A stretch of 64,000 nt of DNA. Source: Rubripirellula amarantea (lineage in GTDB: Bacteria; Planctomycetota; Planctomycetia; Pirellulales; Pirellulaceae). This document shows, one piece after another, positions 17,868 through 63,233 of the stretch. The stretch spans positions 1,178,001-1,242,000 of the forward strand of contig NZ_SJPI01000001.1 of NCBI RefSeq assembly GCF_007859865.1, read 5' to 3'. Under the pieces are notes generated by a model that saw nothing but the letters and a program-made list of their open reading frames with translations, did not search any database and was not told the DNA's origin. Both the position numbers and the translations under genes were made by a program. Positions within the stretch are counted from its first letter, which is position 1, and each line of letters opens with the position of its first letter.

Positions 17868-18914
17868 ATGGCCAAGGGTCGAAAAAAAAGATCAGCGATT
17901 GAACTCGGACACGATGCCTTCTTGGACATCGTCGCAAACCTCGTTGGCATTCTAATCATTCTTGTCGTCGTCCTCGGCGCTCAGTCAACCGCCGTTATCG
18001 AGCAAGTCACTGAGGACGAAGACGCAACCGTGGTGAATCTCACCAACGAAGAATTTGCCACTGACCAACAGCTAGAAGTGTTGGCGGGCGTGACCATGCG
18101 AGCCGCCGCGGCGCAAGCGGATTCCAATCGACTCGAACGATTGGTCACTCAGTACGATGCAGAACTCGAGGCGCGAATGGAACAGCGAGGCATGTTGATG
18201 GACTTGCTTTCCGAAGCCCAAGCCGCCTGGCAAGCCAAACAACGTGACCTTGACCAGGACAAACTAGCAGCCGCCAAGCTGCAAACCGAACTAGAAATTA
18301 CCGAGCAGCAACTAGCGCAGATTCGGGGTGAGCGAGAGCGAATCGAAGGCGAACCCGCGCCCGTGGTCGCCGTTGCACATTTGCCGACTCCCATGGCCAA
18401 GACCGTCTTTGGTGAAGAAATTCACTTGCGTCTTAAAGACAACCGTTTGTCAGTCGTTCCCCTAGAACGTTTGCTTGAAGAAATCAAAGACGACCTTCAA
18501 CGCGCCATGAACGGATCTCGAAACGGCGAAATTGACGGAGCCGTTGGCCCCGTCCGCGGATATGTCGCACGGTACGCAATGGACAAAAGCCAGGGACTGA
18601 TTTCGCGAGGAGGCACGGCTCAGATGGCAACGCGAGTCCAATTGGTAGGACTCATGCTCGAACCAATGAGCGAACCTTATGGACAAGAAATTGAGAAAGT
18701 GTTCGCGGGAAAGAGCGAACTCGACATTGAGCTTGCCGGTCGTGATCCCAATACAACCACCATCACAGTCTGGGTTTATCCCGACAGCTTCGCATCTTTT
18801 CGGCGACTCAAGGAAGTGCTTTACACTCGCGGCTTCGCCACCGCTGCTCGGCCTTTGCCCCAGAACGCAAAGATCACCGGCAGCGCCAACGGATCACGAT
18901 CCGACGCGCAGTAG
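17868..18914 (+). CDS. Single-pass membrane protein with ExbD-like Asp, proton-channel partner
   Basis: The 348-residue product has a basic N-terminus (MAKGRKKRSA), then HDAFLDIVANLVGILIILV, in which an Asp lies at the start of the single membrane span, as in ExbD, TolR and MotB. A coiled coil follows (about residues 75 to 165, LEARMEQRGML to QIRGERERIEG). The C-terminal domain has strands and helices and no known motif. The start is ATG at 17868; a GTG further upstream would overlap the previous gene's end and is less likely. Together with the two preceding genes it looks like a motor with one channel protein and two rod-like partners, of which only this one keeps the ion-binding Asp. Confidence 0.75.
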   Translation: MAKGRKKRSAIELGHDAFLDIVANLVGILIILVVVLGAQSTAVIEQVTEDEDATVVNLTNEEFATDQQLEVLAGVTMRAAAAQADSNRLERLVTQYDAELEARMEQRGMLMDLLSEAQAAWQAKQRDLDQDKLAAAKLQTELEITEQQLAQIRGERERIEGEPAPVVAVAHLPTPMAKTVFGEEIHLRLKDNRLSVVPLERLLEEIKDDLQRAMNGSRNGEIDGAVGPVRGYVARYAMDKSQGLISRGGTAQMATRVQLVGLMLEPMSEPYGQEIEKVFAGKSELDIELAGRDPNTTTITVWVYPDSFASFRRLKEVLYTRGFATAARPLPQNAKITGSANGSRSDAQ

Positions 18915-40256: not shown

Positions 40257-40359
40257 ACGCACTTTTTCTATCCGAAAAACTCGGGACGACGCGATTTGGC
40301 AAAGTCAGTACACTGCGGCGAGTTCAGCTTGAATCCGCAACGTGTCATTGACCTTTACC

Positions 40360-42339
40360 ATGGCTCCTGAAATTCGTCGTGCCTTCTTTGTCCTTGCTGG
40401 TGTGATCGCAATGGTCATGCTGGTTTGGGCCGCTCGATTTGACCCCATGCCACCGGCCGAGTTCAGCTTTCAAAACGGCACGGACCCTAAAACGCTGGAC
40501 CCCCATCGTGCCACCGGGCAACCCGAGAGTCGCATTATCTTTAATGTTTTCGCGGGGTTGCTTCAGGCGTTACCGATGGGCGAGCCCGACCCCGACACTG
40601 GCGTCCAACCCATGGGGGCGCAGCCAGCGATCGCCAAAAGCTACCAGGTGTCTCCCGACGGCAAAACGTACACCTTCCAGCTCCGTGAAGACGCCGTGTG
40701 GTCTGACGGTGTGCCAATCACGTCTGCGGATTTCGTGTGGTCATGGACGCGAATGTTGCATCCCGAGACGTTGTGTCAGTACGGTTTTCAGCTTTACAGC
40801 CTTCCCCATGCCGAAGCCTACAACACCGGCGAAGTGACGATTGGCGACCGAGTTGAAGTGGAGCTATGGGATCGCCCCGGTGACGTTCCCGGTGGCGACA
40901 GCGACATCAACAACTTCCCTCGTGGAACCATGCGATACGGCACGTTGAAGGACATCATCAAACCGGATGAGCCAGAGCTTCCTGAAACGATGGCGGCCGA
41001 TGATCGTGATCGCAAATTGGCACGATGGAAAGAGGATTGGGTTTTCCGAATCGAACTAGCCAGCGAGTCTGAAGACGGCGAAGTGAATTGGGATGATGTC
41101 GTTGGCACGCAAGACTATTGCCGACATCCACTTACTTCCCAAGCCGCTACCGAAGATACGCAGGCCACCCATGGTGTGCTTATCGCGTTTAATAAACTCG
41201 GTGCCGTCAGGGCTCCAAACGATCATACGTTCATCGTTCAACTCAATGCTCCGGTGCCCTACTTCCCCGATCTATTGGCCTACTATCCAACATTCGCATT
41301 ACCAAAGCACTGCATTGAAGAACACGGTGTTCCGATGTGGACCAAAGCTGAAAACATCGTTTGCAACGGACCGTACAAGGTGGGCGCTAGGCTGCTTCGC
41401 GATCGCGTTCGGCTGGTGAAGAACGAGAAGTACTTTGATGCTGATGAGGTCGCAATCGAAACGATTGATGCCATGTCGACCGAAAGCGGGAATACGGCAT
41501 TGAACATGTACGAAACCGGCCAGATCGATTGGGTCTACGATCCACCTTCGTTGTTACTTGATGAACTTCGAGATCGAGACGACTTCATTCCCGCGCCGAT
41601 GTTGTCGGTCTACTTCTATCGGATCAATACCACTCGCCCACCGATGAACGATGTGCGAGTGCGTCGGGCATTAGCGATGGCAATCAATCGCGATCAAATC
41701 GTTTCGCAAATTACTAAGGCAGGCCAGATCCCCGCCTACACGCTCGTCCCACCCGGAATCGCAGGTTACGAAAGTCCTCCCGGCTTCAAACCCGACATCA
41801 ACGAAGCGAAGCGTCTGCTTTCTGAAGCGGGTTTTCCCGGCGGTCGCGGATTTCCCAAGGTTACGATTCTCTACAACACTCAAAGCATGCACCGCGCGAT
41901 CGCGGAAGTGATCCAGCAACAATTACTCAATACACTGAACATCAAAGTCGAACTGCAAAACATGGAATGGGGCAGTTATCTCGACAAGGTGGATCAACTC
42001 AACTACGACATCGCCCGAGCAGGCTGGGTGGGTGACTTTGCGGATCCCACCACCTTCCTTGACCTGTGGGTTACTGACGGTGCTCAAAACAGCACAGGCT
42101 GGGGAAATGAGAATTTCGATCAACTACTCAAAGACGCTGCCGAAGCCGGTGGCGAGCCTGACAAGCGAATGAAGTTGCTCAGCCAAGCTGAAGCCATTTG
42201 GATTGAAGAGATGCCCGTGATCCCTATGTACTTTTATGTGTCCAAGAACCTTGTCAAACCTTACGTCGAAGGCTTCTCTCCCACGCCCCAGGACCGGCAT
42301 CCGTTTCACTTATTGCGATTGCGAAAGGATGCAAAATGA
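40360..42339 (+). CDS. oppA: Oligopeptide ABC transporter, substrate-binding protein
   Basis: The 659-residue product has an N-terminal membrane or signal segment (residues 8 to 28, FFVLAGVIAMVMLVWAA) and the family-5 solute-binding fold: NGTDPKTLDPHRATGQPES, AIAKSYQVSPDGKTYTFQL, WSDGVPITSADFVWSWTRM and later VRVRRALAMAINRDQI. It binds oligopeptides outside the inner membrane and passes them to the permeases. An extra segment of about 90 residues with acidic blocks (roughly 165 to 255) lies inside the binding protein. No lipobox is seen, so it is probably held by its uncut anchor. ATG at 40360 is chosen over GTG at 40342. It overlaps oppB by 4 bases. Confidence 0.92.
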   Translation: MAPEIRRAFFVLAGVIAMVMLVWAARFDPMPPAEFSFQNGTDPKTLDPHRATGQPESRIIFNVFAGLLQALPMGEPDPDTGVQPMGAQPAIAKSYQVSPDGKTYTFQLREDAVWSDGVPITSADFVWSWTRMLHPETLCQYGFQLYSLPHAEAYNTGEVTIGDRVEVELWDRPGDVPGGDSDINNFPRGTMRYGTLKDIIKPDEPELPETMAADDRDRKLARWKEDWVFRIELASESEDGEVNWDDVVGTQDYCRHPLTSQAATEDTQATHGVLIAFNKLGAVRAPNDHTFIVQLNAPVPYFPDLLAYYPTFALPKHCIEEHGVPMWTKAENIVCNGPYKVGARLLRDRVRLVKNEKYFDADEVAIETIDAMSTESGNTALNMYETGQIDWVYDPPSLLLDELRDRDDFIPAPMLSVYFYRINTTRPPMNDVRVRRALAMAINRDQIVSQITKAGQIPAYTLVPPGIAGYESPPGFKPDINEAKRLLSEAGFPGGRGFPKVTILYNTQSMHRAIAEVIQQQLLNTLNIKVELQNMEWGSYLDKVDQLNYDIARAGWVGDFADPTTFLDLWVTDGAQNSTGWGNENFDQLLKDAAEAGGEPDKRMKLLSQAEAIWIEEMPVIPMYFYVSKNLVKPYVEGFSPTPQDRHPFHLLRLRKDAK

Positions 42340-43265
42340 GTGACGTCTTTTCGTACATCGGCAAACGTTTTCTTTGGATGATCGCCACGGTGTGGTTGGT
42401 TTATACCGTTTCGTTTGCATTGATGCGTTTGGCTCCTGGCGGTCCCTTTAGCGCCGAGCGAAAAGTGCCACCGGCAATCGAACGACAAATGGAAGCTAGG
42501 TTCAATCTCGACGGCACATACGTTGAACAATACTTCGACTACCTCAAAGGAATCTTGACCAAGGGTGACTTAGGTTGGTCGTTGAAGCTGGAAGACTACA
42601 GCGTCAACGAGGTCATCGCACAAGGCTTTCCCATTTCAGTTTCGTTAGCCGTTTTCGCATTGATTTTTGCGGTCGTGTTGGGCGTAACCGCTGGTGTGAT
42701 CTCCGCCGTGTATCGCGGTACGTTCGCCGACACATCCATGATGATTGCAGCCGTGATCGGGATTGCGGTGCCGAACTTCGTGCTGGCCAGCGTCGCTATT
42801 TTGTTATTCGTTTTTGGTATTTCTATCTTTCCAGCCGCAGGCTGGGGAACACTTCAACAGGTCCTCTTACCCGCACTCTGCTTGGGAGCACCTATCGCGG
42901 CATACATCGCTCGGCTATCCCGAACCGGCATGTTGGAATCGCTCTCGCGGGAACACGTGCGAACAGCCTTTGCAAAAGGTTTGCCAAAGTCAACGGTGAT
43001 CTTCAAACACGTTTTGCCTGGGGCGATGCTTCCCGTGGTTTCTTACCTCGGCCCTGCGACCGCGCGAGTCTTGACCGGATCACTGGTGCTTGAACAGATC
43101 TTTGCTTTACCCGGTATGGGCAGCCACTTCATCAACGCCGCGTTGCAACGGGACTATCCGCTCGCGATGGGAATGGTGTTAACGTACACGGTGATCTTGT
43201 TCGTTATGAACAGCCTTGTTGACTTGTCCTACGCCATCATCGACCCCAGGGTGAAACTGCAATGA
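42336..43265 (+). CDS. oppB: Oligopeptide ABC transporter, permease OppB
   Basis: The 309-residue product has six membrane spans and the typical start of DppB/OppB permeases (GKRFLWMIATVWLVYTVSF, then RLAPGGPFSAERKVPP). The EAA loop that contacts the ATPases is near residues 205 to 225 (SREHVRTAFAKGLPKSTVI), and VLTGSLVLEQIFALPGMG follows, as usual. Together with OppC it forms the inner-membrane channel. AAGGA lies 7 bases before its ATG, and it overlaps both neighbours by 4 bases, which fits translational coupling. Length is normal for the family. Confidence 0.95.
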   Translation: MSDVFSYIGKRFLWMIATVWLVYTVSFALMRLAPGGPFSAERKVPPAIERQMEARFNLDGTYVEQYFDYLKGILTKGDLGWSLKLEDYSVNEVIAQGFPISVSLAVFALIFAVVLGVTAGVISAVYRGTFADTSMMIAAVIGIAVPNFVLASVAILLFVFGISIFPAAGWGTLQQVLLPALCLGAPIAAYIARLSRTGMLESLSREHVRTAFAKGLPKSTVIFKHVLPGAMLPVVSYLGPATARVLTGSLVLEQIFALPGMGSHFINAALQRDYPLAMGMVLTYTVILFVMNSLVDLSYAIIDPRVKLQ

Positions 43266-50179: not shown

Positions 50180-52174
50180 TCATTGCGTGGGCGTAGTCTC
50201 GGCCACGTTTCCGCTTTCGTCATCGGCCACGGCAACCTCTTCCCCCTCATCATCATCCTTGGGTTTGGCAGCCGGTAGTTTTCCGCCATTCTGGGTGGCT
50301 TTGATGATATCAGTTTCTAAATCGCGAATAAGCTTAGGATTGATATGCTTTGCCAATAGGTCGCGAGTCGTCGTGAACATTTGGTCGACTTGGCGACGTT
50401 GATTCGGCCCCTCTTTTTCAAGCAGCTTTAAGTAGATTGCTTGCTTCTTCCCCATGTCATCGGCAAGTGCCTCGTTGCTGGGCTGTTCGTTGAGTGCGTT
50501 CATCAGCTCTTTTGCATTGTCGAGTTCGCCTCGCTCAAGTCTCATGCGAATACGAGCTTTGAACAACTCACGAACAGCAACCAAGTCGATGATCGAATTC
50601 TGGACACCTCGAATGTACGCTTCGGCTTGCAAACGCAAATCGTCACCACGTAAGTCGGCGATGACAACCGGCTCCAGACCAGGAACCATGGGCAGACGAG
50701 CCAGCACTGCTCCACCGTTCTTAACATACATCAATCGAAGTGGTTCATCGGTTCGATCGACCTTCAACCTACCACTCCAATCAGTACGCCCAATGAATGT
50801 CATGCTTTTAGATGTTAGTTCTTTTTGGTAGATCTCATATCCGATAAGCGGTTCGTTCGGTTTTCCTTGAGCATGCAAACGCAAGATCGTGTGATCCTGC
50901 TGAGGCTTGGCTTTGATCGCCGTTCGGAACGTTCGATTATTCTTGCGACCTTGCAGACCACCACTTCGACCAGCGTAAAAGTCCATCTCTACCGAAGTGC
51001 CTTCACGTTTATCGACGACAAGGTAAGCCCAATCGATCGGACCAATCAAAAAGGGATTGCCGTTTCGGTCATTCTTTCGAGTCAATGGCCTCAAAACGTC
51101 ACCTGCGGACACTAGGCCTGGTGATTCGTCGGTGATGATCAACCCAGATGCGCGGAGCAAACCCGAAGCATTCTTCTGGCCTGCGTTGTCGATGCGAACC
51201 GTAGGCGCAAACGCATCCATCAAACCTAAACCAACGGTCTGACTAGGCGTGGCACCAACGTTGATCGGCATTCGGCTAACAGGACCGAAATATCGCATGA
51301 GCACATCCATCTCGACGATCTCTACTCGCGGATGCACATCGTTGGTCTTCACGTTGACCAAGTAAACCTTATCGAAGTCTTCGACCTGATCGGCAATCAA
51401 ACCTTGGACGTCGGGTTTAACCAACTTGGCCTCGGGTTCATCCAGAGTCAGGGCCAGCCCTCGCGAGACAAGAATGGCTTCGGTACTTGGATCCGTCCAC
51501 TTTTCCGCCACAACAATCGGATTGTCGCTGACAACTTCAAAGCGCTGCACTAATCCACCAAGCGTCGCGTCACCGCTTGCTTCACCGCGAGCCACAAGAG
51601 AATCAACTGCATCCTTAGTCGTGTAAATTTTCTTGACGAACTTGGCGACGTCGTCAGCCACTCGAATGCGAATGGCCTCGTCGTGATCTTTCTTCACCGC
51701 CAATACCGGATCGACCCCAGTGATCGAGTCGTAGTTAAGTAGCCCCATATCGCGATTCATGATCGCGTGCAGAGAAGACGGCGTTTGCCGAACTTTCATT
51801 CGCCAGATCGAAGCGAAGTCTCGATCCAAAAAGTCTCGTAGAGGTTCAGCAATCGCATCCGCGTCGAACCTTGCGTCGTCTGAAGCCACCCACACCAAAA
51901 CTCGGTATGGTGAATAATCCCATGCTTCGTTTGCAACGTCGTCCTGATCGGATTCCGCTACGACATCCTCCGAAACGGTCGCTTTGTCGGAACCACTACC
52001 TGCTTCACTGGCATCTGGAAGTGGCGATGAACTTGCAGCAGGTGCATCATCTTGGACGTCCGCCGCAGTAACAATACTCGGGATCGTAGCCTGACCCCAA
52101 AACGCTACGAAAAGAAACACCAGAGTGCTGCATGATCGAGGTCGAGACCATCGAAACGTGAACTGATTTATCAT
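50180..52174 (-). CDS. Exported protein of unknown function, last gene of the ExbB/ExbD operon
   Basis: The 664-residue product has a signal peptide (MINQFTFRWSRPRSC, hydrophobic core, cut near TAADV) and then an acidic linker. Residues 90 to 440 contain strands and helices with no known motif (YSPYRVLVWVASDDARFDA; VDKREGTSVEMDFYAGRSG). A helical part near 520 to 600 and an acidic C-terminal tail follow. The sequence does not match a family I know. The start is ATG at 52174; upstream in-frame codons would overlap the previous gene. It begins 4 bases after the end of the peptide-binding-like gene, which shows that it belongs to the same operon and probably to the same envelope assembly. Confidence 0.75.
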   Translation of the reverse strand: MINQFTFRWSRPRSCSTLVFLFVAFWGQATIPSIVTAADVQDDAPAASSSPLPDASEAGSGSDKATVSEDVVAESDQDDVANEAWDYSPYRVLVWVASDDARFDADAIAEPLRDFLDRDFASIWRMKVRQTPSSLHAIMNRDMGLLNYDSITGVDPVLAVKKDHDEAIRIRVADDVAKFVKKIYTTKDAVDSLVARGEASGDATLGGLVQRFEVVSDNPIVVAEKWTDPSTEAILVSRGLALTLDEPEAKLVKPDVQGLIADQVEDFDKVYLVNVKTNDVHPRVEIVEMDVLMRYFGPVSRMPINVGATPSQTVGLGLMDAFAPTVRIDNAGQKNASGLLRASGLIITDESPGLVSAGDVLRPLTRKNDRNGNPFLIGPIDWAYLVVDKREGTSVEMDFYAGRSGGLQGRKNNRTFRTAIKAKPQQDHTILRLHAQGKPNEPLIGYEIYQKELTSKSMTFIGRTDWSGRLKVDRTDEPLRLMYVKNGGAVLARLPMVPGLEPVVIADLRGDDLRLQAEAYIRGVQNSIIDLVAVRELFKARIRMRLERGELDNAKELMNALNEQPSNEALADDMGKKQAIYLKLLEKEGPNQRRQVDQMFTTTRDLLAKHINPKLIRDLETDIIKATQNGGKLPAAKPKDDDEGEEVAVADDESGNVAETTPTQ

Positions 52175-52178
52175 GAGA

Positions 52179-54527
52179 CTAGTTTCCGATCCGCCAATTG
52201 TCGGCATTCTGGTAAAGCGAAACGATGTCGCTACCCATTCCAATAAGGTCTCGCCGATACGCGTAGGAGTCGACCATTTGCCAAAGTGGAATGATGGGCA
52301 ACTCGTGATGCGAGATTGCGTGCAAACTAATCAGCCCGTCGCGAACCTCTCGCCAATTCTTAGCCTCTTCGATCCTACGCAACCCCAACCCAACTAGCTG
52401 ATCGTTACTCTTGGCGAGCCCCTCGGGACCAAGCACTCGGCGAGCGTCGATCACCGGTTCCCAAACCGCAGCGGAGACATAAACGATGTCAGCGATGTCT
52501 TCGTCGGAATTTGGGAACGTTCGGCCAACCGGAAGTTCAACCAATTCCACTTCAAGTCCGATCAATTCCCATTGGCTTCGAATTGCTTCACACGCGACGC
52601 GAGACATGTTATCGCTAGGAAATGCCAAGCGAATGGGTGTAAGCTCGGGCACTTCTTCTTTCTTACGCTGAGCCATTGATTCCATTTGGTTCTTATTCAT
52701 CGCTAACAACAATTTCGCCAGCGGCGGTTCATAGTTGCGAGGCTTGATATTGCGATCGTAGGCGTAACCTAGCGGGTCATTCAGCTCGATTCCCGCTGGG
52801 AAAGGCCCTGACAGTACTCGACAACCTTCAAAGTCGAGACCTTCGAGCAGTTCACCTTTGAGGATGTCTTCCCGGTTGATTCCGTAGACCAACGCGCGCC
52901 GGAACGTTCGCTCGGCAAGATAGGGATGGTCCGAACACGGTACCAACATGTGAACGGTGGGTAATGGATAGTTGACGACCTTCACGTTTCGGCTTTTTCT
53001 TAGCCGCACCGCGTCAGCGGGAAACAATTGATCGAGCACATCCAATTCACCTCGAAGCAACTGGCCGACCCCTTCAGCACCCGAATCCAATCGGTTCTCG
53101 ACGATTTCACGAGGTTGGTTTTCCGTTTTGGGTTTTCCCGACAACACGTAACGAACCAACTTATAATCGTCTTCCACCAAGTCCGTTCGATAATCGCCAG
53201 TCGGAGATCCAGGTTCGCCACCAAACCAGCTTCCATCAACGGGAATTTGCAGCAAACAGATGGGCAAGACATGAGGGCGACGCAGGTTAAACGAAATCTG
53301 CTGCGGTCCGTCCAACGCGATGGTTTCCACCGCCGCCGCCCATGGCGAGAAATACTCTGAAGAGTTTTTCTGAGCTCGACGAGCCATCACGTCAGCTAGG
53401 TAATAGCCTTGGATTTGATCCAATGGCGGTTTGAGCTCCTGCGGAGTAAGCATCAAGTCAAACTGCATACGATTGGGATTCATCTCCGTATCGCCGAAGA
53501 TAAAACTGTACTCACCACCCTCTGGTCCCGCGCCCTGGATTTCAAACACGGTGCGGTAGAGCAATCGACCAGCGCGGCGAGCCGCCCAGTTGTCGATCCG
53601 AGTCGGTTCAAATACCGTCGCTGACTGCAACACACCAACGTTGACCAACGGATACGTGTTTTGAATCTGCCTTAATAGTTGAGTGTTGCCTTCGAGGTTG
53701 GGTTCAACGTACGCGCTTTCGCGAATGAAACGACGAGCGGATCGGTAGTCCTTTTCTTTAAAGGCCGCTATCGCTTGGTCTTGCTTGGCCTTCGCCATAG
53801 CCATGAATGTGTCATTCCATTTTTTGACCGCGTCGATCTTTTCGTTGGGATAATCCGATTCGATGCGAGTGAGCAACTGACGCGCGAGATCCAATTTTCC
53901 GTCTTCGACCAAGCCCTTCATCAAACGATCAATCACGCCGCTCATGGCCTTGATCACCTTGGATCGCTCAAAGCTTGGGTCGTATGCTTTAAGTTCTTCT
54001 AGCATCGCCAGCGTGGAAGCCCATTCCTGCTTTTTGGCGCGAGAGATCGCGTCCTTCCAAATGAACTCGCTACGCAACTTTCGCAGGCCGGGACGATTGG
54101 GGAAATCACGGATCAAGACGGAAAGGAATGGATAAGCACCAACAAAATCCGCTTTAGCGATACGCTCTTTTGCTTCCCGTTCCAGTCGGACTTCCCAAAG
54201 GTCAATCCTTTCGATGTCCGACCACTTGCACGTGAGGTCTTTACCCTCAACGCCCAGCACTTGAAACTTCACGCTCCCCGATGGGCTTGACGGTGGTTTT
54301 CGCCCAGGGAAATCTAGCAGGTGTGCTTTGCACCAGCCGCCACCAGACTTTTCCGTAAAGTAAATGATGTCGTGCGGCTCTTCTTGCAGAAGCGCTAATC
54401 CAGGCTCTTCCGGCATGCCTTCTTGCGCGAAGTTAAGAAGTTGCGCGGACGCATCCTTCCCTCCCAATACACCCGAGAGAGCGAACACCAACAATATTAA
54501 TGACAGATTGTAAATCGGTTTCCTCAT
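52179..54527 (-). CDS. Exported TPR plus peptide-binding-protein (SBP family 5) fusion
   Basis: The 782-residue product has a signal peptide (MRKPIYNLSLILLVFALSG). Residues about 110 to 290 are helical repeats of the TPR sort (LRSEFIWKDAISRAKKQEW; QAIAAFKEKDYRSARRFIR). From about 300 on it has the family-5 solute-binding fold: VLQSATVFEPTRIDN, ISFNLRRPHVLPICLLQIP, GQLLRGELDVLDQLFP, RTFRRALVYGINREDIL and LIGLEVELVELPVGRTF. In normal ABC systems this fold feeds a permease; here the operon contains ExbB/ExbD proteins and no ABC subunit. The function is probably binding of a peptide or glycopeptide. The start is the ATG at 54527, 2 bases after the preceding stop. Confidence 0.8.
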   Translation of the reverse strand: MRKPIYNLSLILLVFALSGVLGGKDASAQLLNFAQEGMPEEPGLALLQEEPHDIIYFTEKSGGGWCKAHLLDFPGRKPPSSPSGSVKFQVLGVEGKDLTCKWSDIERIDLWEVRLEREAKERIAKADFVGAYPFLSVLIRDFPNRPGLRKLRSEFIWKDAISRAKKQEWASTLAMLEELKAYDPSFERSKVIKAMSGVIDRLMKGLVEDGKLDLARQLLTRIESDYPNEKIDAVKKWNDTFMAMAKAKQDQAIAAFKEKDYRSARRFIRESAYVEPNLEGNTQLLRQIQNTYPLVNVGVLQSATVFEPTRIDNWAARRAGRLLYRTVFEIQGAGPEGGEYSFIFGDTEMNPNRMQFDLMLTPQELKPPLDQIQGYYLADVMARRAQKNSSEYFSPWAAAVETIALDGPQQISFNLRRPHVLPICLLQIPVDGSWFGGEPGSPTGDYRTDLVEDDYKLVRYVLSGKPKTENQPREIVENRLDSGAEGVGQLLRGELDVLDQLFPADAVRLRKSRNVKVVNYPLPTVHMLVPCSDHPYLAERTFRRALVYGINREDILKGELLEGLDFEGCRVLSGPFPAGIELNDPLGYAYDRNIKPRNYEPPLAKLLLAMNKNQMESMAQRKKEEVPELTPIRLAFPSDNMSRVACEAIRSQWELIGLEVELVELPVGRTFPNSDEDIADIVYVSAAVWEPVIDARRVLGPEGLAKSNDQLVGLGLRRIEEAKNWREVRDGLISLHAISHHELPIIPLWQMVDSYAYRRDLIGMGSDIVSLYQNADNWRIGN

Positions 54528-54529
54528 GC

Positions 54530-57500
54530 TTAATTGCCCGGAACTTCCGTGATGTAAATCACTCCTTCGGCGCCGGGTACTAACAAGCTCTTTCCTACCA
54601 AAATTGGTGAAGACGAAAGAGGTTGCCCCAAGTCGGATTGCCCCGTCAAATTGCCACTCGATGCATCGAGCTTCAACAACCATCCGGTACTTCCTGCCAG
54701 CAACCATTCCTCGCCCATTTCAACGGGAACCCCTACCGGATTGCCATCGGGGATGGAAATCGAAAACTTCTCACTGCCGTCCGGCCCAAACGCTCGCAGA
54801 TTCCCATCATCCGTCTTGATCAATGCATAGTCGTTGGTCGCCACGGGGCCCCACACGATCCTGCCGCCTAAAAGCGTACGAAACCCCTCTTCGAGCGATT
54901 CCATATCATGGCCAACGAGGTAATCCGCTGCCGGTCCGGATGCTCCCGCGATAAACGTGTCATTGACTGACGCAGCGGCTCCCAAGAACTCGGTCTTGAT
55001 GTCTTTAGAAGACAACTCTCGAATCAGACCATCGACCCGCAGACGATAAATTTTCTTTCGACTATCGGCGACGATGATCTGGTTGGGATCATCGGATCGC
55101 GCGACTGGATTGGTCCACTTCACCGTCCCCGCTGGATCGCTGGCGGGCTGGAAGGGTGCTCCGATGACAGCTCCGGTTTGCCAATTAATCAAGACGGCTC
55201 GCCCAGTCGTCAATGGCATGAACAATCCGCCACCGGCGTAGATCATCCCACCGCTTGGCTGACCGGCAGGCAGGCTCATTGTCACTTGCCTGAGTTTTTC
55301 ATTCTCACGCTGCGGTGCATAAACCAGAACGGTTTCTCCACCACCTTCATCCAAGAAAGCCACTCGTCCATCTTCCATCGCGACGGGTTTCTCAAATCGA
55401 ATATTGACGGATCGTCGCCCCGGGTTTTCGAGCGGTCCTTTTGTTGAACCTGATGCCAAAGATTCACGGTCAAGAGCAAACAAAGCAGCCTGGGAAGTAA
55501 CCGAATGAAAACCTCCCTCTGGTGCGGTCCCAATCATAGAAATTGGAACCCCCACATCCGTTCGCCAAATCTCTTCCCCTGTTTTAGGATTAGCGGCGGT
55601 CACGCGAGTGGCCGAGGTTCCGCGAAGCACGCGAGCGTAAACCAAGGTGTCATCCGCGATGAATGGTTTCCCGATGAAACGATCGAGCTCGTGAAGACTC
55701 CAATCGCGAATCACTTGACCAGTACTGATTTGCAACTTGTAGCGTCCTACGCGAGTACCCGTGATCCACATCGCGCTGCCTTGAGGATCGACCGCCATTT
55801 CAGTTGCGGTGGGCTCGTCATAGAACGGAGGCAAGCTCGCCACCACGGAAACCTTGTCTCCCTCGGCGGCCAATTCGATATCTAGAACCTTCACCTCACC
55901 GAGGTCCGTAAGCACGATCAATCGACGGCCTTGGATGATCGGCGACACGCGAACATTCCCCGCTAGGCGGATCGGATCCTGAGCGACCTCGACTTGCTCG
56001 CCTTGCTCGTTAACTTTCAGAACATGAACGAAGGCGTACTTGGTGCCGGCGTTTTCAATCACGAACAAGTGACCAAACAACGGAACCGGTGGGACAGCGA
56101 TCGTACCTTCTGAATGCCCGGTGTAGAAACTCTCGACACAGGTGCCATCTTGAGCGTTAATCACGTAAAGATTGCTGTGATTGCCAGGCATGTAGATTCG
56201 CCGGAGTCGACCATCAACCCCAGGCCCGGTCTCGAGCCCCTGGGGAATTAGAGTCGCCCATTTGGCATCGCCAGAATCAGCATCCATGGAGATCAATCGT
56301 CCGCCATCGGTCGCCACGAAGACATCACTCTTGACGACAACAGGCTCACTAAACGGCTCTCTCATTCGGGCTCGCCAAATCACGTCGCCGGTCTCGGCAT
56401 CGCAGCGAATGATATCGTTGGTGGAAGATTCGCTAAGCAGAACGCCCAATCCATCCTCCACACCGACCGGCGGCAAGTCATCAGAACTACCGACAAACTT
56501 TCGCCATTTCAATTTGCCGCTGTAGCCATCGAACGCCAACACGGAACCACCAGCTCGCAGGTAGAGAGCTTGCCCTCGCAAGTCCGGCGCTTCACGTCCT
56601 GCCAAGGATGTAAGCACGATGGACCGAGCAGCCTTGGATTCCGTTTGTCCCGGACTCGTCTCGGGAACATCCTTGGTCTTGGAGACTAATTTTTGTTGCG
56701 TGTCACTGGCTTCAGCAATCAAAACACTTAGCCGTTCGTGGTCATACAATTCGGGATAGTCACGAAGCAGAGCCTTCCGAGTATCGTAGGCGTCCTTCGT
56801 TTTCTGCTCTTTCAGCGACGCGATCATCTCAGCTTCGGCGATATCCAAGTCTCGGTTTCGGCTGATGTCTCGCTGAACCTTTGCGCGAGCCTCTTCGATA
56901 CTCTTGATTTGCCCTTCCAAAGCGACGCGACTGGTACTGGACATGTACTGTGGGTTTTCCATCAGCTTGCTGTGCTGATCAAGAGTCGCGAGCAGTTCTT
57001 CTTTGCGACTTGTCTCGCCCGCTTTCCCTGCAGCCGTTGCAATGTTCTGAGCGATTTCGACCAACAACTGGGCTAAGTTGTTGCGTTCTTCGTTCATGCC
57101 TTTTTCATCGGCAATCGTTGGCAATAGTTCTCGCGCCTTAGTCACGCCTTGTTCAGGTTCCTGCTTGAACGTTGCCGCCTTATACAACTGAGTCATCACG
57201 ATGCGAGTTCGGGCGAGTGACGAGTACTCCGTTTCTTCGCCGAAACTTTCTAAGAACCCGACGTACTTGCCTTGCGCAGCCTCGTAATTTTGTTGTTCGT
57301 AGGCTGCATTGGCATCGCCAATCACCGCTTCAACGCTCTCGCGTGACAAGATGAAATACAACGCTCCACCAACAACAAGTAACAACGCAATGATCCCGAG
57401 GTAGCCGTAAACCTTGAACGAATCCCAAACCGATTTCTGTGGTGGCGGCTTTCGACGCGTAGGTTGTGGACGATTGGCCATTGGAGTACTCCCTACTCCG

Positions 57501-57892
57501 CCGCCCATCGTTCCCATCGAACCTGACTCCACCGGCATCGCTTCAACCGGCACGGCTTCCATTGGAACCGCTTCAACAGCGACCGCTTCACCGAACACGT
57601 CGTCGTCATCAACGGCCGATACCATTTCCACGTCGGTGGCGACATCAAGTCCAGCGGTTAGATCGACCTCTTCCACTTCAACGGGTTCATCGTATTGGCT
57701 GCTACGCAATTCTCCGATGAGCTTGGAGGCTTGAAACGTAGTCAATTGGCCATTGTCAACTAACAACTTAGCGACCGCCTCGGGGGTCACACGTGACCCA
57801 CCTTGATCGAGTTGTTGACGTAGTGCTTCGATGATCTCTTGATCAAGCAAACCAAGTCGCTCAAGTCGGTCGATCAAGTCTTTAGCGAGCAT
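54530..57892 (-). CDS. Membrane-anchored PQQ-type beta-propeller protein
   Basis: The 1120-residue product has a cytoplasmic N-terminal helical domain (residues 1 to 65, DLIDRLERLGLLDQEIIEA and LVDNGQLTTFQASKLIG) like that found before kinase domains in planctomycetes. An acidic and Val-Glu-Ala-Met repeat stretch (70 to 125) follows, then one membrane span at 162 to 182 and a helical TPR-like section up to about 400. The rest is a beta-propeller of the PQQ/BamB type, seen in repeats such as GSVLAFDGYSGKLKWRKFVG, DAETGDVIWRARM and MDADSGDAKWATLI. No quinone ligand pattern is obvious, so a binding scaffold in the periplasm is more likely than a dehydrogenase. The ATG at 57892 is the first in frame. 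Confidence 0.85.
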   Translation of the reverse strand: MLAKDLIDRLERLGLLDQEIIEALRQQLDQGGSRVTPEAVAKLLVDNGQLTTFQASKLIGELRSSQYDEPVEVEEVDLTAGLDVATDVEMVSAVDDDDVFGEAVAVEAVPMEAVPVEAMPVESGSMGTMGGGVGSTPMANRPQPTRRKPPPQKSVWDSFKVYGYLGIIALLLVVGGALYFILSRESVEAVIGDANAAYEQQNYEAAQGKYVGFLESFGEETEYSSLARTRIVMTQLYKAATFKQEPEQGVTKARELLPTIADEKGMNEERNNLAQLLVEIAQNIATAAGKAGETSRKEELLATLDQHSKLMENPQYMSSTSRVALEGQIKSIEEARAKVQRDISRNRDLDIAEAEMIASLKEQKTKDAYDTRKALLRDYPELYDHERLSVLIAEASDTQQKLVSKTKDVPETSPGQTESKAARSIVLTSLAGREAPDLRGQALYLRAGGSVLAFDGYSGKLKWRKFVGSSDDLPPVGVEDGLGVLLSESSTNDIIRCDAETGDVIWRARMREPFSEPVVVKSDVFVATDGGRLISMDADSGDAKWATLIPQGLETGPGVDGRLRRIYMPGNHSNLYVINAQDGTCVESFYTGHSEGTIAVPPVPLFGHLFVIENAGTKYAFVHVLKVNEQGEQVEVAQDPIRLAGNVRVSPIIQGRRLIVLTDLGEVKVLDIELAAEGDKVSVVASLPPFYDEPTATEMAVDPQGSAMWITGTRVGRYKLQISTGQVIRDWSLHELDRFIGKPFIADDTLVYARVLRGTSATRVTAANPKTGEEIWRTDVGVPISMIGTAPEGGFHSVTSQAALFALDRESLASGSTKGPLENPGRRSVNIRFEKPVAMEDGRVAFLDEGGGETVLVYAPQRENEKLRQVTMSLPAGQPSGGMIYAGGGLFMPLTTGRAVLINWQTGAVIGAPFQPASDPAGTVKWTNPVARSDDPNQIIVADSRKKIYRLRVDGLIRELSSKDIKTEFLGAAASVNDTFIAGASGPAADYLVGHDMESLEEGFRTLLGGRIVWGPVATNDYALIKTDDGNLRAFGPDGSEKFSISIPDGNPVGVPVEMGEEWLLAGSTGWLLKLDASSGNLTGQSDLGQPLSSSPILVGKSLLVPGAEGVIYITEVPGN

Positions 57893-57972
57893 AAATTCTA
57901 AGTATCTGGTTTTAGGTAGTAAGTAGTTTGCGACATCAGTGGTCAGCTAAGAACAGCCGGAGCCGTTCTTCG

Positions 57973-58740
57973 TCAGTCAAAGCTGTCGACTTGAGTAACT
58001 TCGAGTTGGGCGTAGCCTGCGATCGTCCCTGCGTCCATCGCATCAACGAGCGCTTTGAGCTTTGCCATTTCATGGACCTTGATTACCAATCGCATCCCGT
58101 CCTTGTTGGCGGCAATTGCTTCACGCAGTGCTGAAATCAAGTTCTGCTTGCCGGGCGTTTCGCGTTCCCAATCTGGCGCCATCACCAGGAACGATCCAAA
58201 TTCGTCGACCTGAAGTTCGACCATGTCGAGATCTTCGGTTTCTTCTTCGATGACCGCGGTACTGGGTGCGTCGGTTTGTTGACGCGGCATCATGATTGAC
58301 TTTTGCAAACTGAACGCGGCCGTCACCATGAAGAAGATAAGCAACAGGAACGTCACATCCACCATCGGTGTCATGTCCATCTCTTCCTCGGGTCGATTGC
58401 CCCGCGGAAGCACCTTGTCGTCCTCATCTTCATCGTCATCGCTTGCGAACTGGCCACCGGCCGACGCAGCATTGGGCATCGAGGGAGTCGCCATCAAGGG
58501 TGACGGCGATAGATCGCTGGCAACGTCGATTTCAACGGGATCAACGCTCACCGGTTCAGCCTCGACAACCTCAACATTGATGGGCTCGACTTCAATAGCT
58601 TTGGCTTCAGAGGTCTCGACCGTCAATTCGGGAACCGCCACCGCGTTCTCGCAGCTCGGACAACGTACACTTCGCCCCGCCAAACGCTCGTTGACGTGGT
58701 GACTACTTCCGCATGCTTGGCAGGTTACTTCGATGGACAT
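57973..58740 (-). CDS. ExbD/TolR-family protein with N-terminal zinc ribbon
   Basis: The 255-residue product starts with a zinc-ribbon of two CxxC pairs (TCQACGSSHHVNERLAG, then RCPSC, residues 7 to 30), which must lie in the cytoplasm. An acidic, Val/Glu/Pro-rich linker follows, then the ExbD span with its Asp (DMTPMVDVTFLLLIFFMV, about residues 122 to 140) and a periplasmic domain (DLDMVELQVDEFGSFLVMA; MRLVIKVHEMAKLKALVDA). ExbD and TolR couple proton flow through ExbB to movement of an envelope partner. A ribbon on ExbD is not usual. The gene lies about 80 bases from the propeller gene and 87 bases from the next ExbD. Confidence 0.9.
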   Translation of the reverse strand: MSIEVTCQACGSSHHVNERLAGRSVRCPSCENAVAVPELTVETSEAKAIEVEPINVEVVEAEPVSVDPVEIDVASDLSPSPLMATPSMPNAASAGGQFASDDDEDEDDKVLPRGNRPEEEMDMTPMVDVTFLLLIFFMVTAAFSLQKSIMMPRQQTDAPSTAVIEEETEDLDMVELQVDEFGSFLVMAPDWERETPGKQNLISALREAIAANKDGMRLVIKVHEMAKLKALVDAMDAGTIAGYAQLEVTQVDSFD

Positions 58741-58827
58741 CAGACGGCCTTGGGTTGGCTAACGAAAACGCAGATGCAATGAGTGATTAGAAAAACAAAG
58801 GAGTTGAGAAACACGAGTCTTAACGGT

Positions 58828-59295
58828 TTAGTTTTCTTTGACCGCGATGTACGTGGCATCAAGATCTTCAAACGCATCACCGATGATTTTTTGTATTCGC
58901 GTTATCTGACCTACGTTGACGTCAGCGTCGCCAAAAAGCATGACGTGTTGCTTACTTGCACCAAGTGACTTTTCTAACTCGGAAGTGATGTACTCAATGA
59001 TCTCGTTTGCCTGAGCATCTTCGTCTCGGGAAAACTCAGAGCTGTCAATCTTGGACAAGATCACCGAATCGTTGGGACCTGGATTGACGAAAATCACAGC
59101 CGCATTTTTTGCAGCAATCGCCAAACCGTTGTCCGCCTCAGGAATCGTGCCGATCTTGGTGGGGTCCATGGTTGAACACACAACGAAGAAGATCAGCAAC
59201 AAGAACGTGATGTCGATCATCGGAGTGATATCCATCTCGTCGTCGTCGCGTTTCTTACGCGGCAGCATCAGATCTTCGTCTTCGTCGTCGTCCAT
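58828..59295 (-). CDS. ExbD/TolR-family biopolymer transport protein
   Basis: The 155-residue product has a short acidic start (MDDDEDEDLMLPRKKRDDD), the ExbD span with the proton-carrying Asp (DITPMIDITFLLLIFFVVC, residues 22 to 40), and a periplasmic domain with AIAAKNAAVIFVNPGPNDS and KQHVMLFGDADVNVGQI. It forms the stator-like complex with the ExbB encoded directly upstream. The ATG at 59295 is favoured over a TTG four codons earlier. Two ExbD genes in one operon suggest a heteromeric ExbD pair. Confidence 0.92.
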   Translation of the reverse strand: MDDDEDEDLMLPRKKRDDDEMDITPMIDITFLLLIFFVVCSTMDPTKIGTIPEADNGLAIAAKNAAVIFVNPGPNDSVILSKIDSSEFSRDEDAQANEIIEYITSELEKSLGASKQHVMLFGDADVNVGQITRIQKIIGDAFEDLDATYIAVKEN

Positions 59296-59353
59296 TATTA
59301 AATTCAAGTGGGTTTATTGGGGGATGTTAGTTCAATCGAATCCACGTTCTTCA

Positions 59354-60064
59354 TCACTCCAGTTTGGATTGAACGGCTAAAGGTTCGACGGACTGGCCCG
59401 CTGAGGCATTGGGGCGAGCGGCTCCCGAAAACCGGCCGAGATTTTCGCGAAACGCAACCATGAATCGAGCCAAACCTGACCCGACAAGGTCTTCCATTTT
59501 GGCAATTCGAATATTCACACTGGCAACGAGGATCATCAACGGAATTGCGATCGCCAAACCGCAAGCCGTAGTTCGAAGAGCAACGTTGATATCGTCGGCC
59601 AAGGCCGAGGGCTCCACTGACTCAGCCGTCGCAAGCGTCTTAAACGCTCCCATCATGCCGAACACGGTCCCGAACAATCCGATCATGGGAGCACTCTTGA
59701 TCACTGTGCTGACCCAGCTCAATCGGTATTCAAGGTCACTCATGACGTCGCGTTGAAAACGGTCCATGACAAATTGACGAGCTTTCTTGTAGCCGAGTTG
59801 GCGATGGGTGCACGCCATTTCGGCAATCTGAGGAATCGCACGGTTGTCCCCGTCGCAATACTCAACCACTCCATCAAAATCGCCGGCGTCAAGCATCTGC
59901 TCAACGTCATCCATGAAAACGTCTTGCTCCTCTTCCGTCTTGAAACGCTTTTGACCGACGCGAGTCCAAACAACAACGATGCAATAGAGTCCCCAGAGCG
60001 CATTAGCAGCGAGCGCAAAGTAGGTCGTCTGAGAAATAAGGTCAAACAAGTCAGCAAAGATCAT
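59354..60064 (-). CDS. ExbB/TolQ-family proton channel protein
   Basis: The 236-residue product has three membrane spans as in ExbB: the first at about residues 9 to 32 (LISQTTYFALAANALWGLY), the others near 128 to 150 (SAPMIGLFGTVFGMMGAFK) and 170 to 195 (ALRTTACGLAIAIPLMILV). A cytoplasmic helical domain (TEEEQDVFMDDVEQMLDAG) lies between. ExbB proteins form a pentamer around an ExbD dimer and use the proton gradient. ATG at 60064 is chosen over a TTG at 60085. It sits between the 327-residue single-pass protein and the two ExbD genes, all in one direction with small gaps. Confidence 0.92.
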   Translation of the reverse strand: MIFADLFDLISQTTYFALAANALWGLYCIVVVWTRVGQKRFKTEEEQDVFMDDVEQMLDAGDFDGVVEYCDGDNRAIPQIAEMACTHRQLGYKKARQFVMDRFQRDVMSDLEYRLSWVSTVIKSAPMIGLFGTVFGMMGAFKTLATAESVEPSALADDINVALRTTACGLAIAIPLMILVASVNIRIAKMEDLVGSGLARFMVAFRENLGRFSGAARPNASAGQSVEPLAVQSKLE

Positions 60065-60121
60065 CGGTGCTGAAGTCCTGTACAAAAAGTGAAGAGGTTA
60101 GTTGATCAATTGAAAAGTGAA

Positions 60122-61105
60122 TTAACGACGTGGTTTGCGATAACGTTGACTAATCACTTTGAACGCATACCCATCGCCTTCGGCGGTGCTTTCAAAAACA
60201 GTCTTGGCCAGTTCGGTCACTGATTGGTGGCCTTTAGATTTGGCGAAGTCGAGTTCTATTTTGGCGAGTAGGTTTTCAAGATCCTTGGGGATCAATTTCA
60301 AAGTGCTACGACCGTCAAGTTGCACACCGGCCTGGGCCAACATTTGCCGGTCGTATTGCAGCAACGGGCTAGCGGTCTTGAACATGAAGTACAAGCGTTT
60401 TTCGGTGGAAGCGTCAGCGATGCGTCGAGCTTTCGGGCTCGAGACAAGGTTGTTGACGATGTCGAGACCTTGGATTTTCCCACCGACGGCTCCCAACTCG
60501 ATCTTGTAATAGTCGAGTTGCTTGGCGTAGGCCGTTTTGTCACGCGCACTGAAGTCAAGTTGCCACCGTTCGAACCGGGGGACGATATCTTCGCCTTCGC
60601 CTTCGGGACCAGGTGGCCGACTGTCACCGGCGCCAGTACCAGAAGTGGTTGCTGTAGCCGCGGTATCATTCGTGGTGAGCGACGCGGCAACGCTACTGAC
60701 CGCATCCGTGACGGCCTCGATGGTGTCCTGTAAAGTCGGCTCCATCAATTCCTCGACCTCTTCGGCCCCCGGCGGTTCAAAGTCGCGTTCAAACCCTTCA
60801 GGGTTTTCTCCGCGACCGGCGGGGTTCTCGATGATCGGTTCAATGGCGACTGGCCCAAATGAGAACCGACTGGTCAACCATATGATGAACAGCATCGTGA
60901 CAAAGATACCGATGAACAGCATCAACGCCATGAAAAAGGACGTCACCACATCGAAATGGCTAACGCGAAGGCGTTCTCGCTCTTGCTCTCGCTCGGCCTG
61001 AATCTGCTCGCGGCGTGTTTGGGAATCATGCGCATCGACATTTCCCACGACTTCGACCGAGTCGGCGTTATCCGAATTACCAAGTGAATCGTTCACCGAA
61101 GCCAC
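60122..61105 (-). CDS. Single-pass membrane protein of the ExbB/ExbD operon
   Basis: The 327-residue product has a charged N-terminal arm (RREQIQAEREQERERLRV), one membrane span at about residues 57 to 80 (SFFMALMLFIGIFVTMLFI), an acidic linker with Pro, Glu and Thr, and a C-terminal domain of about 150 residues (WQLDFSARDKTAYAKQLDY; KRLYFMFKTASPLLQYDRQ). Topology and place in the operon recall TonB, with cytoplasmic start, span, Pro/Glu linker and periplasmic end, but there is no sequence match to TonB. The start is GTG at 61105, since no ATG precedes the span. It is probably the moving partner of the motor, by inference. Confidence 0.75.
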   Translation of the reverse strand: MASVNDSLGNSDNADSVEVVGNVDAHDSQTRREQIQAEREQERERLRVSHFDVVTSFFMALMLFIGIFVTMLFIIWLTSRFSFGPVAIEPIIENPAGRGENPEGFERDFEPPGAEEVEELMEPTLQDTIEAVTDAVSSVAASLTTNDTAATATTSGTGAGDSRPPGPEGEGEDIVPRFERWQLDFSARDKTAYAKQLDYYKIELGAVGGKIQGLDIVNNLVSSPKARRIADASTEKRLYFMFKTASPLLQYDRQMLAQAGVQLDGRSTLKLIPKDLENLLAKIELDFAKSKGHQSVTELAKTVFESTAEGDGYAFKVISQRYRKPRR

Positions 61106-61187
61106 CGTGGGAACCTAAAAAGGCAAATGCAAGAAAAGAAAAAATGAAGCAAGAGAAGTGAAAGCGAATCGCGATCGCCACCGGGGT

Positions 61188-62909
61188 TTAGAGATCATAG
61201 TCCAAAAAGACGTGAGTCGGATCAACGGTGCGGTACCAGTCTCGCCATTTGTCCTGGACTTTTGAAACTTCCTGCTTCCAACGGTCCTTGACCGCGTCGT
61301 CGGCACTTGGGGGTGGACTTGGCGGCAGATCGTAACCATCAAACTTGCGACTGATGAACCGGAGCCCATCACGTGCGAAGCTCTGCACCACGCGATCCGG
61401 GTCGCTGAGTGCATAGATCAATGCCGGGGCGACTCGCAGTTCATCGCTCTTGCCCAACAACTTGGCTGCCACACGACGGGCTTGGTAGGAACGACTCCCG
61501 CGAACCAAACGCTCAAGCCGATCGATTTGGGCACGACGTGCCTTCGGATTGGGGTCGAGATCCAGATCATCGGGCAGCGATTTGTCACCAAGACTATCGG
61601 CGTTCTCATCTTCTTCGAGGATCGATAATAGGTCGGTAACCTGAGTGGCAATAGCCTGACCCTTGATTTGACTTCCATCGACACGAATGTTGGTGGTGTC
61701 TTCAGGAAATCCATAGCCGCCGGTAAGAGACCCTTGGCTGCTTTGGAAGATCGCTTTCTGAGTACTACGGATCAGAAACAGAAGAGCGAACGATGTGCTA
61801 ACAATCGGCGACGTATGGGCTCGATCATCCCAACCACCGCTGGCCCCTTGGAACGATTTCAGTTCCGCAGCGATTTCGTTGTACCAATCGGGACTCTTGT
61901 CCTTGGGGCGACCGTAGGCAATCTCCACAAACGACTCGTAGCGTTCACGAGTGTAGATGATGTAGTAGTAGAAGTCGCTCGACTTGGGCCGAGTGTAGGG
62001 ATTCGCCACTCGCCACTGATCAAAAAAGCTTGCTGAACGCTTGACGGGTTCTTGCGAAAGCTTGACCTTCCCTCGTCTTTTTTTATTGGCGTCTTCTTTG
62101 TAAAGCTGGATTGCCTTGGGCAGACCTGGGACACCGGGGTCAGCTTCATCAACGGTATCGCCCCACAGACGCAGCGCATCGCCAGCAATCAACAGACTGC
62201 TACCGCCCGCCAAACCCATCGACATCCCGACTCGTTCCCTTTGAGCGACGAGACCTTTTCCGGGGCCAGGGTCGTAAGCCTGATAGGGCCAAGCGCCTCG
62301 AATATCCTGCACCCTCATCAACCACTCGGCACAAGCAGCAACCTTGCCGTAGTCCAAAGGAATTCCATTTCGATCCAACGTCCAGATAGCCAAAACCACG
62401 TACTGGACCTGAGAAATATCCCCCGTGGCGTATCCTGGATACCCAAAACCTCCACCAGGCATCTGATGATCCATCAGATGATGCTGGAACGATTCCAACT
62501 GAGGCTTGTATCGAGCAGCGTCCACCTCGGCCAGCAACAGCGTTGCGACGGGAATTTCGTAGTTTCGCTTGTGACCGTGCTCGCCTGCCCCATTTTCAAG
62601 AGCCTTTTGCATGGCCAAAGCGGCTTGCACCCCCCGCTTCACCACCGGATTGTCGGGATCATGCCTGCATTTGTAGTGAGCGTAGGCAGCCAAAATCGGA
62701 ACACCTGAATAGTCGTCAAATGACCCAGGATTGGGCATCGTCATTTTTTGACTTTCCAGGTAGGCAACCCCGCGATCGATCATCTCTTGGACCACTGGGT
62801 CATCAGGCGAATAGGCGTGACTAGCAAATGGCGAAATGCCGTGCATCAGCGTGGCAAAGGCAAGGAAAACGAACCAGCCGAAAACTCGCTTCGTTTTTTG
62901 AGATTGCAT
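61188..62909 (-). CDS. Exported prenyltransferase-fold protein with HEAT-like end
   Basis: The 573-residue product has a signal peptide (RVFGWFVFLAFATLMHG). Residues 40 to 440 contain the repeats of the alpha/alpha barrel of squalene cyclases, prenyltransferases and complement-like proteins: RGVAYLESQK, GVQAALAMQKALENG, CAEWLMRVQDIRGAWPYQ and ELKSFQGASGGWDDR. The DxDD acid motif of squalene-hopene cyclase is not found at the usual place, so this is likely a non-enzymatic version. The C-terminal 120 residues (SYQARRVAAKLLGKSDELR; SDPDRVVQSFARDGLRF) resemble HEAT repeats. ATG at 62909 is chosen because the signal peptide starts there. It is the first gene of the eight-gene operon, next to the tRNA gene on the other strand. 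Confidence 0.82.
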   Translation of the reverse strand: MQSQKTKRVFGWFVFLAFATLMHGISPFASHAYSPDDPVVQEMIDRGVAYLESQKMTMPNPGSFDDYSGVPILAAYAHYKCRHDPDNPVVKRGVQAALAMQKALENGAGEHGHKRNYEIPVATLLLAEVDAARYKPQLESFQHHLMDHQMPGGGFGYPGYATGDISQVQYVVLAIWTLDRNGIPLDYGKVAACAEWLMRVQDIRGAWPYQAYDPGPGKGLVAQRERVGMSMGLAGGSSLLIAGDALRLWGDTVDEADPGVPGLPKAIQLYKEDANKKRRGKVKLSQEPVKRSASFFDQWRVANPYTRPKSSDFYYYIIYTRERYESFVEIAYGRPKDKSPDWYNEIAAELKSFQGASGGWDDRAHTSPIVSTSFALLFLIRSTQKAIFQSSQGSLTGGYGFPEDTTNIRVDGSQIKGQAIATQVTDLLSILEEDENADSLGDKSLPDDLDLDPNPKARRAQIDRLERLVRGSRSYQARRVAAKLLGKSDELRVAPALIYALSDPDRVVQSFARDGLRFISRKFDGYDLPPSPPPSADDAVKDRWKQEVSKVQDKWRDWYRTVDPTHVFLDYDL

Positions 62910-63160: not shown

Positions 63161-63233
63161 GGTTAGATAGCTCAGTTGGTAGAGCACGGCCCTGAAAAGG
63201 CCGGTGTCGGCGGTTCGAGCCCGCCTCTAACCA
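63161..63233 (+). tRNA. tRNA-Phe (GAA)
   Basis: A full cloverleaf can be folded: acceptor stem GGTTAGA with TCTAACC, D-arm GCTC with GAGC, anticodon stem CGGCC with GGCCG and loop CTGAAAA, so the anticodon is GAA, and T-arm GGCGG with CCGCC and loop TTCGAGC. The discriminator base is A. The CCA end is not encoded. It is the only RNA gene that I can support in the window. Confidence 0.97.

Follow-up and report, generated by a model that had tools for sequence, protein, structure and literature searches.

The 64,000-nucleotide stretch of Rubripirellula amarantea DNA analysed here (the window) carries eight minus-strand genes, running from position 62909 down to 50180 and designated PT, SP, ExbB, ExbD1, ExbD2, PQQ, SBP and END in that order. 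The eight genes very probably encode a single machine. Its motor belongs to the ExbBD/TolQR superfamily, as identified by a MotA_ExbB domain and the transmembrane Asp motif of ExbD/TolR proteins. The genes are not chance neighbours, because their order is conserved and they co-occur across genomes. Our reading as a whole, that of a trans-envelope machine found class-wide in most of Planctomycetia, with SP as its force transducer and a role resembling that of Tol-Pal, is held tentatively, at slightly less than even confidence. No published description of the operon was found among the titles and abstract openings of a largely open-access literature. The division and the envelope of this class have puzzled researchers for a long time, which lends interest to an envelope machine present in most of its sampled genomes.

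A first-pass annotation of the sequence had described eight tightly ordered genes, including an ExbB, two ExbDs, a PQQ propeller and a peptide-binding domain, and all of these open reading frames and domains were confirmed. The gaps from PT to PQQ are 82, 57, 58, 87 and 80 bases, followed by 2 bases between PQQ and SBP and 4 between SBP and END, counted from ATG starts at 54527 (SBP) and 52174 (END). PT (61188–62909) is an exported, HEAT-like protein and the loosest member of the set. SP (60122–61105) is a single-pass protein with an acidic linker and a C-terminal periplasmic domain. The ExbB/TolQ-type subunit (59354–60064; MotA_ExbB, PF01618, 1.2e-22) is followed by two ExbD/TolR-type subunits, ExbD1 (58828–59295; PF02472, 4e-13) and ExbD2 (57973–58740; PF02472, 7.4e-20), the second with a putative cytoplasmic zinc ribbon. 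PQQ (54530–57892; PQQ_2, 5.8e-24) consists of a cytoplasmic N-terminal domain, one transmembrane helix, a TPR-like stretch and a BamB-like propeller. SBP (52179–54527) is exported and has a repeat-like N-terminal half followed by SBP_bac_5 (PF00496, 7.2e-14), and END (50180–52174), for which 48 sequences were aligned, is another exported protein. Neither SP nor END matches any Pfam family at E≤1. The signal-peptide-like starts of PT, SBP and END, the N-terminal helix of SP and the single helix that follows about 160 residues of PQQ were read by eye from the translations.

Gene order was compared in 61 loci, namely the window and 60 loci fetched for an SP match, including second copies and short contigs, and only genes on the SP strand were counted. 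In 45 of these SP-selected loci, the order SP-ExbB-ExbD-ExbD-PQQ-SBP-END is kept, and 21 of the 45 have the exact eight-gene set. Of the remaining 16, six have no other operon gene on the strand of SP, four have PT-SP-PQQ-SBP-END and lack the motor genes, three have PT-SP and three are truncated; one of the six (L069) has a divergent ExbB-ExbD-ExbD trio adjoining SP. SP was matched in 50 of 60 genomes, the window's own among them. The order is thus not limited to close relatives, nor are the accessory genes mostly found apart from the motor genes. A quirk of close relatives is ruled out by the order in the 61 loci and by the occurrence of SP across 297 class genomes. The SP gene is duplicated nearby in two loci (L040 and L047), the first of which also has an extra ExbD.

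The first-pass annotation took the machine to be specific to planctomycetes, and as far as tested, it is confined to Planctomycetia. SP relatives were found in 40 of 392 phylum genomes, every one in this class, with a first SP profile that listed no match in Gemmataceae (f118) or family f121 where an improved profile did, which leaves its absence from other classes unproved. With the improved profile, 297 class genomes at 90% completeness or above gave SP matches in 265, of which 61 were weak. The genome scans for SP, ExbB and SBP each scored a limited number of candidates per genome, down to two. SBP matches were obtained in 91 phylum genomes, 51 of them outside the class (best E 5.6e-61). 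Nine such out-of-class regions were fetched, and eight have no ExbB match; in the other (L249), an ExbB and two ExbDs lie downstream of SBP at a distance of about 6 kb, separated from it by other genes. In L249 (8555–10153) and L251 (9543–11228), a distant out-of-class SBP relative lies beside a gene for an MglA-like small GTPase, recognised as such by eye.

Co-occurrence was tabulated for 224 class genomes. The 73 left out were those of Gemmataceae (68) and f121 (5), where SP is weak (matched in 56/68 and 5/5, respectively) and ExbB is at paralogue level; the names Gemmataceae (f118) and Isosphaeraceae (f22) derive from relatives of one member each. SP is present in 204 of the 224 and absent from 20. 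An operon-type ExbB (E≤1e-30) was found in 201 of the 204 SP-positive and in none of the 20 SP-negative genomes, and the TPR-SBP protein (E≤1e-20) in 203 and none, respectively. Fisher's test gives p of about 1e-25 for ExbB and 1e-27 for SBP, values that are uncorrected for kinship and so overstate the certainty. Both thresholds were chosen after inspection of the data. The ExbB values nearest to the threshold are 9.0e-30 in an SP-negative genome (G450) and 3.2e-34 in an SP-positive one (G487), and every other positive scores no worse than 4e-49. Among the 203 SBP values, 200 are at most 3e-56, and the best SP-negative value is 2.2e-12. The other three (G341, G379 and G671, from one genus) have values of about 1e-26 to 1e-27, as ordinary Dpp-like paralogues also do; the match is backed by gene order in G379 and by position near its ExbB in G341, and is putative in G671.

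The genes also appear to be lost as a set. The 20 absences of SP are spread over ten families (f3, f6, f8, f9, f12, f13, f16, f18, f119 and f22), and in three of these (f13, f119 and f22), the set is absent from some members and kept in others. Two genomes of one genus differ in this way, with SP, ExbB and SBP all present in one and all absent in the other (G048 and G660). The assembly of one SP-negative genome (G471, f22) is a draft in 600 contigs. No SBP match above 48 bits was obtained from nine SP-less genomes searched separately.

Where the genes have separated, they are generally retained. The accessory genes accompany ExbB and ExbD in most loci, but in Isosphaeraceae and a few other genomes, the motor genes lie elsewhere. 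Three Isosphaeraceae loci (L092, L106 and L108) have SP-PQQ-SBP-END without an adjacent ExbB or ExbD, and two of them have PT. The ExbB-ExbD-ExbD trio stands alone elsewhere in four genomes (G501, G434, G452 and G054) and also in G455, whose SP locus was not fetched. The reverse arrangement, with ExbB-ExbD-ExbD-PQQ-SBP-END together and SP elsewhere, was found in G430, G274 and G379; in G379, SP is at 1132823–1133665 (-), and the other six genes run from 2201743 to about 2211000 (+). Because the modules are retained after separation, they are better explained by joint function than by hitch-hiking, and the earlier proposal of one functional unit stands, resting on conserved order and on co-occurrence even when the genes are unlinked. 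An ExbB search of 21 genomes gave matches of 170 to 287 bits in 11 and none above 98 bits in 10, which are four SP-less genomes, five Gemmataceae or f121 genomes and G055; G472 and G484, among these 10, still have an ExbB on the operon side of the tree described below. G055 (locus L068) has kept PT, SP, SBP and END, while its PQQ match is weak and no operon-type ExbB was found, which could possibly reflect decay or motor replacement.

The motor subunits were placed on trees. Of 209 ExbB matches, 39 were removed as duplicate or short; the ExbB tree has 141 of the 170 that remained and excludes 29. One branch with 100/95 support holds all 78 rows of at least 140 bits plus three others, and the 60 rows outside it include paralogues from the same genomes as well as other phyla; the tree is unrooted, so that this is a split and not a proven clade. 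The three additional rows on the operon side are from a Gemmataceae locus with an adjoining SP-like gene (L125) and from two f121 genomes with SP-like genes (L140 and L142). A contig scan with ExbB found four operon-type loci (L166–L169) among the 80 listed. ExbD1 and ExbD2 fall on opposite sides of a branch with a FastTree support of 0.999. One of 90 is misplaced, probably through a labelling slip at L057, and the tree excludes four of 94 ExbDs that did not fit the motif pattern. Under a strict pattern, the transmembrane Asp motif is kept in 41/47 ExbD1 and 43/47 ExbD2 proteins. The zinc ribbon proposed for ExbD2 is sub-threshold in the window protein, but a CxxC...CxxC pattern is present near the start of 39/47 ExbD2 and 0/47 ExbD1 proteins.

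SP has one membrane helix, an acidic linker of about 100 residues and a C-terminal domain that is confidently modelled and has no clear match in the PDB. Fold comparison gave weak matches only; TonB and TolA chains are absent from the matches listed, which does not exclude them. At sequence level, the best PDB match to SP has E 0.099, and there is no Pfam match to a vWA C-terminal domain at E≤1. The TonB_C domain (PF03544) has no match in the window's genome (G000), one of 40 searched, of which 17 have matches. The idea that one of the eight genes encodes an unrecognised TonB or TolA was rejected at the level of domain and motif, by Pfam on the eight proteins, by the PF03544 search and by the lack of a His in the core of the SP membrane helix. 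The first-pass annotation had noted the lack of TonB, TolA and a receptor, and none was found by motif or Pfam; the motor nevertheless has a transducer-like candidate partner in SP, which has the topology of a transducer. Topology, gene order and co-occurrence together make it probable that SP is the dedicated transducer of this motor.

PQQ and ExbD2 vary among relatives, some of which have kinase or FHA domains at the cytoplasmic ends of these proteins. The N-terminal 450 residues of 46 of 51 PQQ proteins were scanned, and a YfiO/BamD-type TPR match at E≤0.01 was found in 16 and an FHA match in 12. Two PQQ proteins, both of family f2, have a Ser/Thr kinase in this part (L056, 7210–8559; L060, 7339–8688). 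In two of 47 cases, a kinase is instead fused to ExbD2 in one open reading frame (L087, 6851–8440; L091, 6718–8331), with E-values of 1.1e-48 for Pkinase and 1.6e-19 for ExbD in the former. A pairing of kinase on ExbD2 with FHA on PQQ was not seen, as the PQQ proteins of both kinase-ExbD2 loci lack an FHA match; the two kinase-PQQ proteins lack one as well. The machine may be regulated from the cytoplasmic side, to judge from the variable zinc ribbon, FHA and kinase domains; phospho-control of the motor, to which the kinase-ExbD fusion points, is a suggestion and not a result.

Among the periplasmic proteins, the PT product had been read as having a prenyltransferase-type or HEAT-like fold. 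The HEAT-like part holds as a weak, sub-threshold HEAT_2 match, and the squalene-cyclase-like fold was found in one relative only (L079; SQHop_cyclase_C, 6.2e-7) and not in the window protein. The repeat-like N-terminal half of SBP was read as TPR by eye. The PDB relatives of SBP are AgaA, DppA and NikA. Within its stretch DLxYxxxxxxEPxxDA, the residue four positions ahead of the Pro is not a conserved Asp; at this position, Opp/Dpp proteins hold the amino end of the peptide. SBP may bind something else or act as a scaffold.

These features bear on several other explanations. SBP belongs to the Dpp/Nik/Opp family, and planctomycetes are reported to take up macromolecules in the available part of one source (PMC5394234), so the motor could be part of an uptake machine that opens an outer-membrane channel while SBP binds an incoming peptide or sugar. 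This is unlikely. The eight genes include no receptor, and no permease or ATPase as would be seen in an ABC peptide importer; SBP lacks the conserved ligand Asp; and in most of the sampled families of this class nearly all genomes have the set, some of them genomes without TonB_C. The text of that source, as far as available, lacks the terms ExbB, ExbD, TonB and TolR. The polysaccharide or peptide transport proposed in the first-pass annotation is unsupported. It is still less likely that the machine is an energised assembly aid, in which a PQQ protein with a BamD-like TPR and a BamB-like propeller helps to insert or position outer-membrane proteins. PQQ does match TIGR03300 (BamB) at 2.4e-24, and the YfiO/BamD-like TPR recurs as described above, but the BamB score is under the family cut-off, as are the YfiO scores that were inspected individually. 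Moreover, PQQ is anchored in the inner membrane, no BamA-type domain occurs among the eight proteins, and propellers and TPRs are common.

A motor for surface motility, pili or secretion, similar to AglRQS-Glt or GldLM, would also combine one ExbB with two distinct ExbDs and several soluble periplasmic partners. However, none of the eight proteins has a recognisable outer-membrane barrel or adhesin domain, in searches not aimed at the Agl and Gld families; such a motor seems improbable. The same low rank is given to an envelope sensor, in which SBP and the propeller would sense the periplasm and the motor complex relay the signal to inner kinase or FHA-type domains. The kinases on ExbD2 and PQQ and the FHA matches are what such a sensor might be expected to have, but most members have neither kinase nor FHA, and no kinase-FHA pair was seen.

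In the trans-envelope machine that we favour, ExbB and the two different ExbDs would form a proton-driven motor of the 5:2 type known for the ExbB/ExbD family, the two ExbDs presumably as a hetero-pair. The SP helix would sit beside the motor, with the acidic linker crossing the periplasm and the C-terminal domain gripping a partner. The periplasmic gear might consist of the TPR-like part and the propeller of PQQ, itself a second protein of the inner membrane, together with the soluble SBP, END and often PT. As cells grow and bud, the machine could pull on or position partners in the outer membrane or cell wall. A Tol-Pal-like role in envelope maintenance is a real possibility, though short of an even one, because the set is broadly conserved, the window's genome has no TonB_C match and no Tol-Pal-like cluster by its ExbB and OmpA matches, and Planctomycetes are, in the available part of one report, among the phyla with a largely reduced Tol-Pal (PMC8871954). 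A more ambitious scenario, and an unlikely one, is that the budding, FtsZ-less Planctomycetia swapped a reduced Tol-Pal for a proton motor that was assembled independently and has a transducer of its own, other than TonB or TolA, a periplasmic gear of BamB/BamD-like and SBP parts, and cytoplasmic control by zinc ribbon, FHA or kinase domains.

Several observations weigh against a Tol-Pal-like transducer machine of this kind. At the ExbB position that aligns with a TolQ Glu (E176 in ExbB), the residue is V, L, F or I, so that in its details the motor departs from a standard TolQ or ExbB; as the core of the SP helix also has no His, the contact between motor and SP would differ from that in Ton and Tol. 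No Pal, OmpA or TolB-like domain was found in the eight proteins, and TolB_N (PF04052) and TolA were not searched genome-wide. The window's genome has two OmpA domains, one of which lies 480 bases after another, MotAB-like ExbB and the other near none of the genome's seven ExbB matches. PT is present in only 34 of the 61 loci. Three genomes (G415, G055 and G595) have SP without an operon-type ExbB and one (G658) has SP without SBP, while whole families lack the system, such as f8 (10/10 sampled). An SHLS motif in the transmembrane helix is, in the available part of one source, a criterion for TonB/TolA transducers (PMC12215075), and a His in the core of the helix, as placed by hydropathy, was found in 0 of 59 SPs.

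A tRNA-Phe gene lies upstream of the operon at 63161–63233 (+), and promoter-like and terminator-like patterns between 49900 and 63300 are rarer than in shuffled sequences and do not locate the operon boundary. Among the flanking genes, those at 44470 and 45537 recur in five other loci, and the commonest flanking cluster occurs in 14. At 40342–43265 on the opposite strand (+), an Opp/Dpp-type SBP_bac_5 protein (7.6e-91) and an ABC permease begin an importer set, which is doubtful as a partner of the operon. At 14391–18914 (+), a separate ExbB-type gene (462 residues; PF01618, 2.3e-14) is followed by two genes without a Pfam match, and this is a different motor locus. In Rhodopirellula baltica, exbB (RB12053) and exbD (RB12055) are salt-induced according to the available part of one report (PMC2754498); they are not shown to be this operon. 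Planctopirus limnophila has genetics and an essential-gene map, again from a partly available source, whose main text does not contain the terms ExbB and ExbD (PMC10632474).

Among known systems, Tol-Pal (TolQ-TolR-TolA-TolB-Pal-CpoB) is similar in having a TolQ/TolR-type motor, a single-pass partner, a propeller, TPR-like parts and broad conservation. It differs in that SP has neither SHLS nor a TonB_C or TolA Pfam match, that the propeller here is BamB-type and membrane-anchored rather than TolB-type, and that this set has two ExbDs and the additional SBP, END and PT, but no Pal. The Ton system (ExbB-ExbD-TonB) shares the motor family, but the window's genome gave no TonB_C match, and none of the eight genes encodes a receptor. 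The AglRQS/Glt gliding motor has one TolQ-type and two TolR-type subunits, as does this set; no Glt-type gene was recognised by Pfam among the eight, in searches not aimed at Glt families. Finally, the vWA force transducers of PVC (Planctomycetes–Verrucomicrobia–Chlamydiae) and other bacteria are encoded near a tolQ-like gene and two different tolR-like genes, as described in the available part of Williams-Jones 2025 (PMC12204202), and have the same arrangement of transmembrane helix, linker and domain as SP. They carry a vWA domain, and many have SHLS, whereas SP has no vWA match and no transmembrane His. SP is a second candidate for a non-TonB/TolA transducer, beside the vWA proteins.

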